DNA of 52,726 nt from Actinocrinis puniceicyclus (GTDB lineage: Bacteria > Actinomycetota > Actinomycetes > Streptomycetales > Catenulisporaceae), in assembly GCF_018283645.1 (NCBI RefSeq), contig NZ_JAGSXH010000034.1:1-52726 (forward strand), given 5' to 3'. Under the pieces are notes generated by a model. It made no database searches. It saw only the letters and a program-made list of their open reading frames with translations, and was not told the origin of the DNA. Below are positions 3,126 to 22,658 of the stretch, one piece after another (within the stretch, counting starts at the first letter, position 1; the number at the start of each line of letters is the position of its first letter). The position numbers and the translations under genes were made by a program.

Positions 3126-3974
3126 GTGAGGGTGTCGCAGATCGTGCGGGCGGCGCTGGTCCAGCAGAAGTGGACCGGCGAGAAGAAGACCATGATCGAG
3201 AACGCGGTGGCGCACGTGCAGGCGGCCGCCGCCCGGGGCGCGCAGGTCGTCTGCCTTCAGGAGCTGTTCTACGGGCCGTACTTCTGCCAGGTGCAGGAGC
3301 CCGAGTACTTCTCCTACACCGAGGCGATCCCGGACGGGCCGACGACCCGGCTGATGCGGGAGGTCGCGCGGGACAACGGCGTGGTGCTGATCGTGCCGAT
3401 GTACGAGCAGGAACAGCCCGGCGTCTACTACAACACCGCGGCCGTCATCGACGCGGACGGCGCCTTCCTGGGCAAGCACCGCAAGAACCACATCCCGCAG
3501 GTGCGCGGGTTCTGGGAGAAGTTCTACTTCCGGCCCGGCAACCTCGGCTACCCGGTGTTCGACACCGCGGTCGGCCGGATCGGGGTGTACATCTGCTACG
3601 AGCGGCACTTCCCGGAGGGCTGGCGGGCGCTGGGCCTGGCCGGGGCGCGCATCGTGTTCAACCCCTCGGCGACCAGCAGGGGCCTGTCACAGTACCTGTG
3701 GCGGCTGGAGCAGCCCGCGGCGGCTGTGGCCAACGAGTACTTCATCGGCGCGATCAACCGGGTGGGCGTGGAGCCGCTGGGCGACAACGACTTCTACGGC
3801 CAGTCCTACTTCGTGGACCCGCGCGGGCAGCTGGTCGGCGACGCGGCGTCGGACACCGAGGAGGAGGTCGTCGTGCGCGACCTGGACATGGGCGCGTTGC
3901 AGGAGGTGCGCGACCTGTGGGCGTTCTACCGCGACCGGCGCCCGGACACCTACGGCCCGCTGACGCAGGCCTGA
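3126..3974 (+). CDS. Beta-ureidopropionase / N-carbamoyl amidohydrolase (nitrilase superfamily)
   Basis: A nitrilase-fold amidohydrolase that cleaves N-carbamoyl-beta-alanine to beta-alanine, CO2 and ammonia, the last step of reductive pyrimidine degradation. The Glu-Lys-Cys triad is visible: Glu in VVCLQELFYGPYF, Lys in GKHRKNHIPQVRGFWEKF, and Cys in GVYICYERHFPEGWRALG. The FWEKFYFRPGN segment and the overall length match beta-ureidopropionases and N-carbamoyl-D-amino-acid hydrolases better than generic nitrilases. An ATG at 3093 is in frame, but GGAAGGA at about 3116 places the start at GTG 3126 or 3132. Those starts also give the usual family N-terminus (VSQIVRAALVQ). The gene begins about 40 bp after the permease and is followed 16 bp later by dihydropyrimidinase, so the three are probably co-transcribed. 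Confidence 0.93.
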   Translation: MRVSQIVRAALVQQKWTGEKKTMIENAVAHVQAAAARGAQVVCLQELFYGPYFCQVQEPEYFSYTEAIPDGPTTRLMREVARDNGVVLIVPMYEQEQPGVYYNTAAVIDADGAFLGKHRKNHIPQVRGFWEKFYFRPGNLGYPVFDTAVGRIGVYICYERHFPEGWRALGLAGARIVFNPSATSRGLSQYLWRLEQPAAAVANEYFIGAINRVGVEPLGDNDFYGQSYFVDPRGQLVGDAASDTEEEVVVRDLDMGALQEVRDLWAFYRDRRPDTYGPLTQA

Positions 3975-3990
3975 GCGGGGGCGCGGGCAG

Positions 3991-5394
3991 ATGAGCATCC
4001 TGATCCGCGGCGGCCTGGTCGTCTCGGCCACCGGCTCGGCATCGGCGGACGTCCTCGTGGAGGGCGAGCGCGTGGCGGCGCTCGCCGCGCCCGGCACCCC
4101 GGCGGCCGACTCGTGGGCGGCGCTGGCCGACACGGTCCTCGACGCGACCGGGAAGTACGTGATCCCCGGCGGAGTCGATGTCCACACGCACATGCAACTG
4201 CCCTTCGGCGGCACCTTCGCCTCCGACACCTTCGAGACCGGCACGATCGCGGCGGCCTGGGGCGGCACGACCACGATCGTGGACTTCGCGGTGCAGAGCA
4301 AGGGCGCGTCCCTGCTCGCCGGCATCGAGTCCTGGCACGCCAAGGCTGCGGGCAACTGCGCGGTCGACTACGGTTTCCACGCGATCCTGTCCGACGTGAA
4401 CGAGGCCGCGCTGAAGGAGATGGACGCCGCGGTGGCGGCCGGGGTCACCAGCTTCAAGATGTTCATGGCGTACCCGGGCGTGTTCTACAGCACCGACGGC
4501 GAGATTCTGCTGGCGATGCAGAAGGCGAAGGCCAACGGCGCGGTCATCATGATGCACGCCGAGAACGGCATCGCGATCGACCAGTTGGTCGCGCAGGCGC
4601 TCGCGCAGGGCCACACCGACCCGGTGTACCACGGCCTGACCCGCCCGCCGCAGCTGGAGGGCGAGGCCACCAGCCGCGCGATCGCGCTGGCGGAGGTCAC
4701 CGGCGCGCCGCTGTACGTCGTGCACCTGACCGCGTCGCAGGCCCTTGACGCGGTGGCGGAGGCGCGCGACGGCGGGCAGAACGTGTTCGCGGAGACCTGT
4801 CCGCAGTACCTGTATCTGGCCCTGGAGGACCTGGCCAAGCCCGGCTTCGAGGGCGCCAAGTACGTCGCCTCCCCGCCGCTGCGCCCGCGCGAGCACGCCG
4901 CGGCGCTGTGGAAGGGTCTGCGCACCAATGACCTGGCGGTGGTCTCCACCGACCACTGTCCGTTCTGCTTCAAGGACCAGAAGGAGCTGGGCCGCGGCGA
5001 CTTCTCCAAGATCCCCAACGGGATGCCGGGCGTCGAGCATCGCATGGACCTGATCTACCAGGGCGTGGTGGCCGGGAAGATCAGCAGGCAGCGGTGGGTC
5101 GAGCTGTGTTCGACGACCCCGGCGCGCATGTTCGGGCTCTACGGCCGCAAGGGTGTGATCGCCCCCGGCGCGGACGCCGACATCGTGGTCTACGACCCGG
5201 ACGCGCAGCAGACCATCAGTGCCGCGACACACCACATGAACGTGGACTACTCGGCGTATGAGGGCATGGAGATCACCGGCCGGGTGGAGACGGTGCTCTC
5301 CCGCGGTGCGCTCGTCGTGCGCGACGGCGCGTTCCACGGCAGGCCGGGGCACGGCCGGTTCGTGCCCAGGGGCTTGTCCCAGTACCTCGTCTGA
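3991..5394 (+). CDS. hydA: Dihydropyrimidinase / D-hydantoinase
   Basis: A 467-aa cyclic amidohydrolase. It opens the ring of dihydrouracil, dihydrothymine or hydantoins to the N-carbamoyl amino acid that the preceding gene product hydrolyses. Metal ligands of the amidohydrolase TIM barrel are present: GGVDVHTHMQLPF (two His), VTSFKMFMAYPGVFYS (carbamylated Lys), MMHAENG, LYVVHLTAS, and STDHCPFCFKDQKELG (metal Asp plus the dihydropyrimidinase-type loop). The C-terminus has the usual GADADIVVYDPD return strand. The length is typical. There is a short gap to both neighbours. The family alone cannot separate dihydropyrimidinase from hydantoinase activity, but the neighbouring beta-ureidopropionase and NCS1 permease fit either. 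Confidence 0.95.
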   Translation: MSILIRGGLVVSATGSASADVLVEGERVAALAAPGTPAADSWAALADTVLDATGKYVIPGGVDVHTHMQLPFGGTFASDTFETGTIAAAWGGTTTIVDFAVQSKGASLLAGIESWHAKAAGNCAVDYGFHAILSDVNEAALKEMDAAVAAGVTSFKMFMAYPGVFYSTDGEILLAMQKAKANGAVIMMHAENGIAIDQLVAQALAQGHTDPVYHGLTRPPQLEGEATSRAIALAEVTGAPLYVVHLTASQALDAVAEARDGGQNVFAETCPQYLYLALEDLAKPGFEGAKYVASPPLRPREHAAALWKGLRTNDLAVVSTDHCPFCFKDQKELGRGDFSKIPNGMPGVEHRMDLIYQGVVAGKISRQRWVELCSTTPARMFGLYGRKGVIAPGADADIVVYDPDAQQTISAATHHMNVDYSAYEGMEITGRVETVLSRGALVVRDGAFHGRPGHGRFVPRGLSQYLV

Positions 5395-18968: not shown

Positions 18969-19961
18969 TCAGACGGCCTTGATCCAGCCGCGCTCGACTG
19001 CGCGCGCCCCGGCCTGGAAGCGGCTGCGCGCGCCGAGGCGGGCGGTCAGCTCCGCGGTGACGCGGCGGCTGGTGCGCACCGAGACGCCGAGCTTGCGGGC
19101 TATCACGTCGTCGGTCCAGCCCTCGGCCAGCAGGCTGAGCACCGCCTGCTCCTGGCCGGTCAGCCCCTGGCCGTCGCGGTGGCGCTCCTCGCCGACCGGC
19201 TTCGCGGTGTGCCATATCTGCTCGAACAGCGCGCACAGCGCCGCGACCATCCCCGGGCCGCGCTGCACGACCGCGCCGGCCTTGCTGTGCTCCGGGTTGG
19301 TCGGGATCAGCGCCTGCTTGCGGTCGAAGATGACCATGCGCAGCGGCAGAGTCGGCGCGGTGCGCACCTGCCCGCCGGCCTCGGCCAGCCAGCGCAGGTA
19401 GTTCAGCGTCGGCGGGTCGTTGCGGGCGCTGTCGAGGTAGATGGTGCGCATGATCGTGCCGCGGTCCAGCGCCTCCTGGTCCAGCGGCCGGCTGGCCTCC
19501 ATGCTGGCCTCGCTCTGCGCCCCGCCGGTGTTGAAGCCCATCACCTCGGTCAGGCCCGCGTGCGCGCGTTCCTCCAGCCAGGAGCGCACCGCGTCGACGC
19601 CGGCGAGCTGCTCGATGTCGGAATGCTGCCGCGAGGGGTGCAGGTTGGCGTAGTTGGCCACCACCGCGGCGACCGCCGCCCGGCTGGCCGCGATCTGCCG
19701 CTGCTGTTCCAGCACCGCGGCCTCGCGCTGCGCGAGCAGCGAGGACAGGCCGACCTCGGGGCTGACCAGCCGCAGCATGCCGGGATTCTCGTCGGAGGGC
19801 CGCAGCAGGGAGAGCCGGGCCAGTTCGTCCAGCCCCCGGCGGACACGCTCGGTGGAGAACCCCAGGCGTTCCGCCAGAGCGGAGACCCCGATGTGCGGCT
19901 CCGCGAGCATTGTCTTGTAGACGTTCTCCGCGTCGAGACTGACGCCCAGTGCTTCCAGCAT
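18969..19961 (-). CDS. LuxR-type regulator with N-terminal TrmB-like winged helix
   Basis: 330 aa with two DNA-binding regions. Residues about 12-58 (VYKTMLAEPHIGVSALAERL, GFSTERVRRGLDELARLSLL) resemble a TrmB winged helix. Residues 75-105 are Ala/Gln-rich and probably coiled coil. Residues about 120-255 form a sensor-like core (TEVMGFNTGGAQSE, LPLRMVIFDRKQALIPTN). The C-terminus is a LuxR/GerE helix-turn-helix (GLTGQEQAVLSLLAEGWTDD, KLGVSVRTSRRVTAELTARL). It is divergent from the 101-aa small protein, with a perfect palindrome in between. Its core and tail parallel the shorter regulator at 20732-21442 (for example LPLRMVIFDR vs LPYPVIVRDR), so the two are paralogues. Confidence 0.9.
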   Translation of the reverse strand: MLEALGVSLDAENVYKTMLAEPHIGVSALAERLGFSTERVRRGLDELARLSLLRPSDENPGMLRLVSPEVGLSSLLAQREAAVLEQQRQIAASRAAVAAVVANYANLHPSRQHSDIEQLAGVDAVRSWLEERAHAGLTEVMGFNTGGAQSEASMEASRPLDQEALDRGTIMRTIYLDSARNDPPTLNYLRWLAEAGGQVRTAPTLPLRMVIFDRKQALIPTNPEHSKAGAVVQRGPGMVAALCALFEQIWHTAKPVGEERHRDGQGLTGQEQAVLSLLAEGWTDDVIARKLGVSVRTSRRVTAELTARLGARSRFQAGARAVERGWIKAV

Positions 19962-19998
19962 GGCAAGCCCCCAACGATCGGTTGCTCCTCAGTGAAGC

Positions 19999-20014
19999 GT
20001 GCAGGTCCCTGCAC
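19999..20014. promoter_or_regulatory. Perfect 16-bp palindrome between divergent LuxR gene and small ORF
   Basis: GTGCAGG-TC-CCTGCAC at 19999-20014 has perfect 7-bp arms. It lies 37 bp upstream of the LuxR-type start (19961) and 62 bp upstream of the small-protein start (20077). Its size fits a dimeric helix-turn-helix operator. Autoregulation is inferred, not shown. Confidence 0.5.
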
Positions 20015-20076
20015 CGCAAGATTCTGCCACACCGAAATCCTGGCCCGTGGCCTTCGGCTGACGGAACATCGGGAAT

Positions 20077-20382
20077 ATGTATCTCATCAATTCGCGCCTG
20101 ACCGCCGAGGACAGCTGCATTAGCGCCGACGATCTTCGCCGTCTATTGACGGATATCGCGGACCCCGGCGACTGCCTGGAACACCTCTACGCCGAGACCG
20201 ACCCACGCGAGGCGCGCCTGGCGCTGTTCCTGTGCCACCCGGATCTGGCGGCGGCCGAGTCCGCCGCGGCGCAGCTGTGCATGCGGGCCCTCAAGACCTG
20301 CCCCGAGCTGCGTGGATGGTCCATGCAGTACTGCGGGGCCGGGGTGGTGCCGGGGGCGGAGAAGATCCTGCTGGGTGTGTGA
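20077..20382 (+). CDS. Small Cys-containing hypothetical protein
   Basis: 101 aa, not recognised. It has no signal peptide. It carries six Cys (in EDSCISADD, GDCLEH, LFLCHPD, QLCMRALKTCPEL, MQYCGAGV) and ends in a hydrophobic tail (AEKILLGV). The first half is helical with DLRRLLTDIADPGDCLEHLY. It is divergent from the LuxR-type gene and upstream of a secreted-peptide gene and a second LuxR-type gene. The ribosome site is weak (CGGGAAT). Codon use is less extreme at the 5' end and then typical. It could be an accessory or anti-regulator of the neighbouring proteins. That is only inference. Confidence 0.65.
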   Translation: MYLINSRLTAEDSCISADDLRRLLTDIADPGDCLEHLYAETDPREARLALFLCHPDLAAAESAAAQLCMRALKTCPELRGWSMQYCGAGVVPGAEKILLGV

Positions 20383-20388
20383 CACCGG

Positions 20389-20405
20389 GGCAACAGCTTG
20401 TTGCC
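20389..20405. promoter_or_regulatory. Palindrome / short hairpin downstream of the small ORF
   Basis: GGCAACA-GCT-TGTTGCC has perfect 7-bp arms and a 3-nt centre. It sits 7 bp after the stop at 20382 and 162 bp upstream of the secreted-peptide ATG. It may be a terminator (no T-tract) or an operator for the downstream peptide-regulator pair. Confidence 0.45.
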
Positions 20406-20566
20406 ACCGCAGGGTCATGTCAGCGCGCAACGGTGACAGGGGCGGGCGCACTCCGGCAAAATCCTGCCTCGGATAAAGGTTCTTGCGAAGCACCGCGGGC
20501 TTCGAATTACCTACCGTTCCGGCAATTACCACCCTGCGTTTGAAGTTGTGCGAAAGAGGCATTCCC

Positions 20567-20728
20567 ATGAAGCGTGCCACCCGTTCCGCGGGCCTGCTGG
20601 TCGCCGCTGCTCTCCTCTCGGCCGCACCCGCGGTCGCCGTCGCCGCGGCCGTCGACTCGCCCACCGCCGCCCCGGTCGCCGTGACCACCGCCCAGGCGTC
20701 CACGGCCACCAACATCTCCTGGGACTGA
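20567..20728 (+). CDS. Small secreted peptide precursor (53 aa)
   Basis: A short gene with ribosome site AAAGAGG seven bases before ATG 20567. The product has a classic Sec signal: basic MKRATR, hydrophobic GLLVAAALLSAAPAVAVAA, and a likely AxA cleavage near residue 28. This leaves a mature peptide of about 25 residues, VDSPTAAPVAVTTAQAS plus TATNISWD. There is no Cys, so it is not a lanthipeptide, and no modification enzyme is adjacent. The stop is followed three bases later by the ATG of a LuxR-type regulator, so the two are co-translated. A secreted signal sensed by, or controlled by, the regulator is the most interesting reading. It is an inference from gene order and the conserved-looking charged/aromatic C-terminus. 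Confidence 0.7.
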   Translation: MKRATRSAGLLVAAALLSAAPAVAVAAAVDSPTAAPVAVTTAQASTATNISWD

Positions 20729-20731
20729 CCG

Positions 20732-21442
20732 ATGACAGAGACCCTTTCCGCTCCGGTGCGGCTGCACCGCCGCGAACCCGCGACGGCGCGCCGCGTCTGG
20801 AATGACGCCGCGGCCGAACGCTCCGGCCCGGCGCGCGGGGCCGCTGCGCTGCTCGGCGCGGAGCTCGAGGAGCTGACACGGGACGAGTTGATCGCGCTCG
20901 TGCCGGAGCCCTGGCTCTTCGACCGGCTGGTGCCGGCCGGGTTGTTCTCCAAGCTGCTGCGCCAGGGGCTGACCGTGCGGGTGCTGCACGGCCCGGCCCG
21001 GCCCGGGGATCCGGCGCCCTTCCCGGCGCTCACCCGGCTCGGCACGGCCGCGCCGACCACGTTCAGCCTGCCGTACCCGGTGATCGTGCGGGACCGCTCG
21101 GTGCTCTACATGCCGCACCCCGACCCGCGCCACCCGATGGCCGGGCGCCTGGCCCCGCAGCCCCACGTCGTCGCGGCCCGCTCGCTGGCGGTCGCCTTCG
21201 ACCTGGCCTGGGCCGCCGCGTGCGGGCAGCCGCCGAACAGCCCGCCGCCCGGGCAGGTGACCGCCGAGCAGCGGGAGATCCTGCAGGTGCTCAGCAACGG
21301 GGTCACCGACGACCACGCGGCGGCGCAACTGCACATGAGCCGGCGCACCTTCGCCCGCCGGGTGGCCTCGCTGATGGACAGCCTCGGGGCGACCAGCCGG
21401 TTCCAGGTCGGCGTGCAGGCCGCGCGCCGCGGACTGGTCTGA
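20732..21442 (+). CDS. LuxR-type helix-turn-helix regulator lacking the winged-helix domain
   Basis: 236 aa. Residues about 40-160 match the sensor-like core of the larger regulator encoded at 18969-19961: LVPEPWLFDRLVPAGLFSKL, LPYPVIVRDRSVLYMPHPDP and VVAARSLAVAFDLAWAA, compared with LPLRMVIFDRKQALIPTN and VAALCALFEQIWHTA. Residues about 172-236 form the LuxR/GerE helix-turn-helix (VTAEQREILQVLSNGVTDDH, QLHMSRRTFARRVASLMDSL, GATSRFQVGVQAARRGLV). The N-terminal TrmB winged helix of the paralogue is missing. The gene starts 3 bp after the secreted-peptide gene with only a weak ribosome site, so its translation is probably coupled to the peptide. Confidence 0.88.
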   Translation: MTETLSAPVRLHRREPATARRVWNDAAAERSGPARGAAALLGAELEELTRDELIALVPEPWLFDRLVPAGLFSKLLRQGLTVRVLHGPARPGDPAPFPALTRLGTAAPTTFSLPYPVIVRDRSVLYMPHPDPRHPMAGRLAPQPHVVAARSLAVAFDLAWAAACGQPPNSPPPGQVTAEQREILQVLSNGVTDDHAAAQLHMSRRTFARRVASLMDSLGATSRFQVGVQAARRGLV

Positions 21443-21911: not shown

Positions 21912-22658
21912 TCAGCCGTAGCGCCGGGTGGTGTCGAGCAGGCTCAGCACGTTGCGGTGCGAGGCCATGATGGCCGGCGCGGTGCCCGGCCCGGAGGGGT
22001 AGCTGAGGTAGGCCAGGTCGTCGGGCCCGGCGGCCCAGGGGTCGTCCTCGAAGAGCCCTGCGGTCTCCAGATCGGTCAGCATCGCCGGGTCGCAGTCCAC
22101 GATCACCGTGCGCAGCAGCGCCGGGCGGTACGGGCCGCCGGGCAGTTCGATCCCCGCCTGAGCCACGATCACACGCAGCCCTATCTCCTGGCGCATGAGG
22201 TTAAGGCGCTCGGCCGAATAGCTGGGGTCCAGCGGCACGTATGCGCCCCCGGAACGCAGAATGCCGAGCATTCCGATCACCAGCTCTATGGAACTTTCAC
22301 AGCACAGCCCGACCGGATGGCCCCGACGCACACCGGTCAGACGCAACTTCGCCGCCACCGTCCCCGCACGGCTCCACAACTGCCCGTAGGTGAGCTCGTG
22401 GCCGTCGAAGGCCACCGCCACCGCATCGGGGTCGATGCACACCTGTTCGGCGATCAGCTGCGGAATGCTCGCTTCGAGGAGAAGGTCCTCCCAGTCCGGA
22501 CCGGCACACGCGGTCAACAGCGCCCACTCCGCCTCGGGCAGGCTGGACAGTTCGCCGACGGCCTCCTCCTGCGCGCCGTACGGCTTGATCCGCTGCGCGC
22601 GGATCACGCCGACCGGCGGTCCGTCGACGCGGTCGGTGAATCGGATGAACATCCCCAT
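21912..22658 (-). CDS. Truncated, motif-degenerate NRPS adenylation-domain fragment
   Basis: 248 aa. After a linker that looks like the end of a condensation domain (ELSSLPEAEWALLTACAG), the adenylation domain begins (PQLIAEQVCIDPDAVAVAFD). Motif A1 is ELTYGQLWSRAG and A2 is LRSGGAYVPLDPSYSAERL. Motif A3, normally YTSGSTGxPKGV, reads YPSGPGTAPAIMASHRNV, so the nucleotide loop has lost its TGxPKG signature including the conserved Lys. The reading frame stops about 15 residues later. Specificity motifs A4-A10 and any carrier domain are absent. It cannot activate an amino acid in the usual way. It is either a decaying relic of an NRPS cluster or a repurposed A-domain N-subdomain. The clean start and intact codon bias leave the second open. 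Confidence 0.75.
   Translation of the reverse strand: MGMFIRFTDRVDGPPVGVIRAQRIKPYGAQEEAVGELSSLPEAEWALLTACAGPDWEDLLLEASIPQLIAEQVCIDPDAVAVAFDGHELTYGQLWSRAGTVAAKLRLTGVRRGHPVGLCCESSIELVIGMLGILRSGGAYVPLDPSYSAERLNLMRQEIGLRVIVAQAGIELPGGPYRPALLRTVIVDCDPAMLTDLETAGLFEDDPWAAGPDDLAYLSYPSGPGTAPAIMASHRNVLSLLDTTRRYG

Follow-up and report, generated by a model that had tools for sequence, protein, structure and literature searches.

Among the described systems closest to the locus reported here are the RRNPP systems, for which five criteria have been set out: a propeptide of 10-100 aa, export of this propeptide via Sec, a receptor of 250-500 aa, peptide binding through TPRs, and adjacency of the two genes (PMC10075063). 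In contrast with the peptide signals of Bacillota, the signals of Actinomycetota are typically small molecules made by enzymes (PMC10075063). Here, we analyzed a stretch of 52,726 nucleotides from the actinomycete Actinocrinis puniceicyclus (contig NZ_JAGSXH010000034.1; the whole stretch is referred to below as the window), in which a preliminary description had proposed a regulatory locus linked to a secreted peptide. The features of the locus are as follows:

18969 to 19961, minus strand: R1, a putative receptor of 330 aa with a TrmB-type winged helix, a coiled coil, a phospholipase-D-like (PLD-like) domain, and a GerE/LuxR HTH
19512 to 19514, minus strand: codon 150 of R1 (Ser), which varies with the final residue of the tail of the cognate peptide
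19999 to 20014, no strand assigned: palindrome GTGCAGG-TC-CCTGCAC within the R1-S divergent promoter, a possible operator
20077 to 20382, plus strand: S, a predicted ferredoxin-like protein of 101 aa, the third component of the module
20389 to 20405, no strand assigned: palindrome GGCAACA-GCT-TGTTGCC between S and P, a candidate terminator or operator
20505 to 20511 and 20524 to 20530, plus strand: direct repeat AATTACC with a spacing of 19 bp, 5' of P, a candidate regulator site
20567 to 20728, plus strand: P, a predicted Sec-type prepropeptide of 53 aa with a charged N-terminus and hydrophobic core, matched in position and design in relatives
20711 to 20725, plus strand: predicted signal core NISWD, probably (T)NISWD, at the C-terminus of P
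20732 to 21442, plus strand: R2, a short LuxR-type paralog of R1 of 236 aa lacking the TrmB winged helix

R1 is thus transcribed divergently from S, P, and R2, which follow one another in that order. P (MKRATRSAGLLVAAALLSAAPAVAVAAAVDSPTAAPVAVTTAQASTATNISWD) ends in TATNISWD and contains no Cys, and 3 bp separate its stop codon from the ATG of R2, confirming in the sequence what had been reported of its length, its TNISWD end, its lack of Cys, and its position. When compared with RRNPP systems, both P (53 aa) and R1 (330 aa) fall within the ranges for propeptides and receptors, and P displays the basic N-terminus and hydrophobic core that, by a simple rule, predict Sec export. P and R1 genes are usually neighboring and divergent; in the window, S intervenes and P abuts R2. 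P had originally been coupled to the co-directional R2, an assignment that was not borne out, as conservation links P mainly to the divergent R1, and R2 was found only in two modules, both in this genome. P, S, and R1 constitute a conserved module, to which R2 is an add-on.

A protein search of the same genome identified a homolog 47-48% identical to R2 (R2') on contig C13 (locus L058), which also carries R1', S', and, encoded divergently, P' (MGFQKTAAASIVSVLAALIIGLGAVHGASSTRAGGFEWSGAQPVQTPATTATA), a Sec-like peptide of 53 aa. The third module, on contig C366 (L059), consists of R1, S, and a peptide whose C-terminus reads PADLTWG, and the tails of the three modules are all different (NISWD, GFEWSG, and DLTWG). 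These two further copies, together with homologous loci in many genomes, exclude chance as the origin of P and S. A scan of genome contigs with R2 as a single protein returned no relatives. The paralogy of R1 and R2, previously proposed from an alignment by eye, is supported by 32% identity (E 1e-17) across residues 71-236 of R2, comprising the sensory core and HTH. R2 differs from R1 at the loop matching R1 residue 150, and a role as modulator or as partner in a heterodimer is conceivable. Beside the module on C13 (L058, 3047-5988), ORFs resembling an SDR dehydrogenase, TauD/clavaminate synthase, and a SAM methyltransferase were recognized by eye, as in a small biosynthetic cluster.

The R1 ORF contains no stops. 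Pfam analysis detected GerE above the cut-off in R1 and in 44/44 family members, while the TrmB winged helix claimed for R1 was matched below threshold in the window but as PF01978 in 28/44 family members. In the AF2 model of R1 (pLDDT 84.7, pTM 0.56), a winged helix is followed by a long helix and then by an alpha/beta domain, with a GerE HTH at the C-terminus. Residues 1-255 match TrmBL2 (Foldseek E 1.7e-10), and residues 113-256 adopt, in the model, a PLD fold (NucT, Z 16.3, rmsd 2.5 over 137 residues; Nuc, Z 15.1; Foldseek and VIA-align), with a VIA Z of 13.0 to the TrmB sugar-binding domain 2f5t; the C-terminus aligns with LuxR-type HTHs at a VIA Z of about 11. In TrmB the PLD-like domain is the ligand-binding domain, and in known TrmB proteins it binds sugars, not peptides. 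To our knowledge, peptide sensing has not been described for transcription factors of this class. The HKD motif of PLD enzymes was not seen in the R1 sequence, and the PLD-like domain of R1 is therefore likely to be binding rather than catalytic.

Two other readings of R1 were rejected. An AHL receptor was discarded because R1 has the PLD-like fold in place of an autoinducer-binding domain, which was absent from the Pfam matches of R1, R2, and the 44 homologs. Likewise, a TPR receptor was discarded because Pfam finds no TPR in R1, where the PLD-like domain occupies residues 113-256.

Homologs of S were found at R1 loci by iterative profile search. A profile search of genomes of the same order detected S in 121/392 (31%), a lower bound given that the copy on contig C13 was itself missed by the profile, and in a phylum-wide sample S was found in 6/396 genomes, all six belonging to this order. 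No Pfam or NCBIfam family matched S. The AF2 model (pLDDT 90.9) displays a beta-alpha-beta-beta-alpha-beta fold, and its structural matches (best Z 9.4) reflect the common ferredoxin-like arrangement and carry no functional information. Judging from this model, S is a new ferredoxin-like family. The six Cys for which S had been singled out are present, but it is the fold and an LEH-centered motif that are conserved, not the Cys. Given that S is small, soluble, and inherited with P, its role is most likely that of a co-receptor, anti-activator, or stabilizer.

R1 homologs with the module occur in Streptomyces, Kitasatospora, Streptacidiphilus, Streptantibioticus, Actinospica, Catenulispora, and other genera. 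At these loci, short Sec-like ORFs with a Trp-containing tail lie divergent from R1, some 230-510 bp from its start. An enrichment test was applied to Sec-like ORFs of 40-100 aa with Trp within the last four residues in the divergent 700-bp window, with a simple hydrophobicity-based rule (a basic N-terminus followed by a hydrophobic core) deciding which ORFs counted as Sec-like. Such ORFs were present at 35/64 R1 genes compared to 5/624 windows elsewhere in the same loci (p 9e-36), and were found neither on R1's own strand (0) nor in shuffled sequence (0/1280). On a relaxed reading, a Trp-tail peptide, usually divergent, could be assigned to 76/107 distinct R1 genes, and about a quarter of R1 genes have no visible Trp-tail peptide. 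Among loci fetched via S, 57/74 encode a Trp-tail peptide by our own reading, with some overlap with the R1-anchored loci. A search with the peptide sequence alone across 119 relatives returned nothing significant; with so short a sequence and so freely evolving a linker, P has to be located via its neighborhood. The peptide-linked regulatory locus of the preliminary description is thus strongly supported by conservation of P beside R1, with signaling its putative function; loss of the peptide beside orthologous regulators, named there as the outcome that would count against it, was looked for and the opposite was found.

The tails comprise the motifs xISWD, xIGWD, SLGWG, AGWQ, TVWE, and CxxCW, with DAGWQ (twice), TTVWE (twice), NGFSWG, GLIWD, DMIWG, and CAGCWG as further examples at S-fetched loci. 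The NISWD of P shares its motif with SISWD, SINWD, VIGWD, and GIGWD of relatives, where up to five copies are present, and precursors, which range from 37 to 92 aa in relatives compared to 53 aa in the window, often contain 2-5 copies: five IGWD in L089, three VIGWD in L084, L086, and L159, three GIGWD in L101, two INWD in L091, two ISWD in L088, and two IIWD plus a degenerate copy in L082. AGWQ, VWE, and LPWT cores also occur in two copies, L214 carries a direct tandem (SMGWQ-SMGWQ), and a subset has CxxCW cores (L032, L036, L045, and L183). For 11 peptide pairs, core positions were identical at 80/80 compared to 112/222 for the linker (p 8e-20), a comparison that somewhat favors the core because the pairs were picked within one tail type. 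A codon-position test on P pairs gave 131/98/122 with no third-position excess, which is uninformative given the GC content and free linker. The informative part of the peptide is therefore a Trp tail of 5-7 residues, often in multiple copies, and not the whole 25-aa mature part.

The order seen in the window, with S preceding P, recurs in L198, L201, L209, L210, L211, L212, and L214, and switches between clades. Several variants of the module were also observed. Three S-anchored, otherwise unassigned loci (L142, L181, and L182) encode variants in which the Trp is internal or the C-terminus carries CxxC. In L096 (about 3347-3670), P appears degenerate and its signal peptide runs directly into the S frame. 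In L095 (about 3200-4010), an intact R1 stands without P and S, resembling a signal-blind receiver, and L105 of Streptacidiphilus jiangxiensis has two tandem R1 genes (1132-2103 and 4001-4966), an S, and no recognizable P. Plasmid pCLA1 of Streptomyces clavuligerus ATCC 27064 carries R1 and a peptide with two DLPWT motifs (L217, 4591-4854, minus strand) in a stretch of the record that has no annotated genes in the collection used. On a plasmid of Streptomyces europaeiscabiei (L219, 2513-3824), R1 is divergent from S and a peptide ending in NTTGWQ, followed by a LuxR-type response regulator in the place of R2.

Conserved elements were also found in the intergenic regions. In the clade with WD tails, the R1-P interval contains the palindrome TGGCACCNNGGTGCCA, in full or as its core (L084, L086, L090, L091, L097, L099, and L101), and the clade with WG tails has conserved elements of the GTCAACCGCGGGACG and GGCGAAGCT types. 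A search for a common operator found that the WD- and WG-clade elements match neither palindrome of the window, whose positions are comparable to those of the relatives' elements and whose sequences are not shared. Conservation of the AATTACC repeat was assessed by k-mer counts. Both palindromes and the repeat are present as claimed, but the promoter role ascribed to them is unproven, with perfect arms of at least 7 arising in 16% of intergenic regions once these were shuffled.

The identity of the final tail residue follows the R1 tree, with 13 changes compared to a shuffled mean of 37.4, an agreement that is partly expected from linked inheritance alone. Residue 150 of R1 immediately precedes a helix of the PLD-like domain. 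It is Ser in all receptors with a WD tail beside them (31/31) compared to 4/45 others, and is mostly Arg beside WG tails (20/26) and Thr beside WQ tails (7/9). Residue 153 is likewise mostly Ser, Asp, and Asn beside WD, WG, and WQ tails, respectively. The two main clades are separated by 26 columns, of which residue 150 alone replicates outside them: among 30 sequences there, Ser is found in 4/4 with WD tails compared to 3/26 with other tails (p 0.0013, or about 0.03 when corrected for 26 columns, with the four WD lineages being few and still related to each other). The window pair, with Ser150 in R1 and a P ending in WD, fits this rule and is one of the four. This covariation provides a lead, not proof, that residue 150 is a specificity position matching the last residue of the tail.

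Clustering of flanking genes found only R1 conserved, plus a family of secreted proteins in 15 loci near P-S (including L106, L083, L086, L087, L090, L097, L101, L108, L109, and L111-L114), with an NlpC/P60-like start followed by repeat or FG-GAP-like regions by eye. The divergent position of P is taken up in L048 by an exported protein resembling this family and in L029 by a papain/C39-like exported protein. Biosynthetic genes near R1 modules include type II PKS genes in L218 and aroA/gpmI in L216. Beside the module in the window (21912-22658, minus strand), a 248-aa ORF matches positions 7-193 of 384 of PF00501; it is the first half of an AMP-binding/adenylation domain, either a stand-alone fragment or the remnant of an NRPS gene.

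Based on these data, we regard the locus as probably a peptide-pheromone module, whose signal would be exported, processed, and reimported to be read by R1; processing, import, binding, and regulation are steps that we infer. P would be exported via Sec, and extracellular proteolysis would free a C-terminal Trp peptide of five to seven residues, here about NISWD, which could re-enter the cell through an oligopeptide importer. Eight SBP_bac_5 (Opp-type, oligopeptide-binding) proteins are encoded in the genome, making import possible, though they are non-specific as evidence. The imported peptide would bind the PLD-like domain of cytoplasmic R1, which would then bind differently to the divergent R1 / S-P-R2 promoters and to other targets, resulting in self-induction or in control specific to cell density or lineage. 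S would serve as a dedicated small partner (stabilizer, anti-activator, or co-receptor), and R2, as a duplicated and truncated regulator, may modulate the response. Whether the module represents a new class of peptide communication across the order, with often multi-copy Sec-exported Trp-tail pheromones, TrmB/PLD-LuxR receptors, ferredoxin-like S, several orthogonal channels per genome, and specificity set by residue 150, we judge to be evenly balanced. No earlier description of it was found in the open-access literature searched, and the module appears to be widespread among Streptomyces relatives and undescribed.

An alternative, which we regard as unlikely but deserving of weight, is that P is an output: R1 would sense another ligand (a sugar, nucleotide, or metabolite) and control secretion of a Trp peptide that acts externally, for instance as an antibacterial, metallophore-like, or surface-active peptide, with S as an accessory or immunity protein. 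The binding of small ligands by the PLD-like domain of TrmB relatives, the larger exported proteins opposite some R1-family genes (L029 and L048), and the secreted NlpC-like/repeat proteins near P-S in 15 loci are all consistent with such a role. However, the covariation of R1 position 150 with tail type points to contact between R1 and the tail, multi-copy cores of 5-7 aa amid freely evolving linkers suit pheromone precursors, and three tails in one genome suit orthogonal signals better than a single effector.

It is improbable that P is instead a RiPP precursor with Trp in its core (Trp-linked or C..CW), modified or recognized by S. While a leader followed by a short Trp-containing C-terminal core, and the CxxCW subset in particular, resemble such precursors, the flanks contain no recurrent family of modification enzymes, only R1 (and S) being conserved there, and the ferredoxin-like S has no enzyme or RRE match. 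Moreover, a Sec signal peptide would be an unusual leader for a RiPP. Less probable still, and to our minds scarcely tenable, is a toxin-antitoxin-like or other cell-killing pair formed by S and P under control of R1; small paired genes beside a divergent regulator would fit, but P is built for export and its mature part is conserved only in the tail, the S/P order switches between clades, and family searches found nothing toxin-like. Finally, a chance ORF, conceivable for 53 codons in a high-GC genome, is refuted by the conservation described above (35/64 R1 promoters against 0/1280 shuffled and 5/624 control windows, with cores 100% conserved between relatives) and was rejected.

Streptomyces and their relatives produce many antibiotics, and most of the signals known to control this production are small molecules made by enzymes. 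If the pheromone reading is correct, the peptides could be synthesized directly as inducers of silent gene clusters, and the module would provide a new class of peptide-sensing receptor with a testable specificity code; one copy is present in S. clavuligerus ATCC 27064, a strain that can be worked with in the laboratory, and another lies beside a type II polyketide cluster. A signaling system of the same order, gamma-butyrolactone (A-factor) of Streptomyces, shares the expected population or developmental role, but its signal is a small molecule made by enzymes, whereas that proposed for the module is a gene-encoded peptide. R1 has the N-terminal winged helix, coiled coil, and PLD-like ligand domain of TrmB/TrmBL2, and differs from these in its added C-terminal GerE HTH, its peptide gene partner, and the absence of any indication of a sugar ligand. 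The GerE HTH is common to R1 and LuxR-type proteins (AHL receptors and LuxR solos); unlike AHL-responsive LuxR, the sensory domain of R1 is PLD-like, and no LuxI was seen. Relatives of P resemble precursors of the yeast alpha-factor type, by analogy and not homology, in carrying several near-identical short cores per secreted precursor, but lack Kex2-like dibasic sites between the cores. A parallel in logic is offered by the RRNPP systems of Bacillota (Phr-Rap, PapR-PlcR, and NprX-NprR), in which, likewise, the gene for a small propeptide, apparently exported via Sec and with its short signal at the C-terminus, lies beside that for a cytoplasmic receptor or transcription factor, in cells with importers present. 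In contrast, RRNPP receptors bind through TPRs, which R1, being composed of wHTH, PLD-like, and GerE domains, does not, and the module is further set apart by its third protein S, its Actinomycetota host, its often multi-copy precursors, and its divergent transcription. We therefore propose that the module is RRNPP-like in logic while not a member of RRNPP, with a receptor class and a partner, S, that would both be new.
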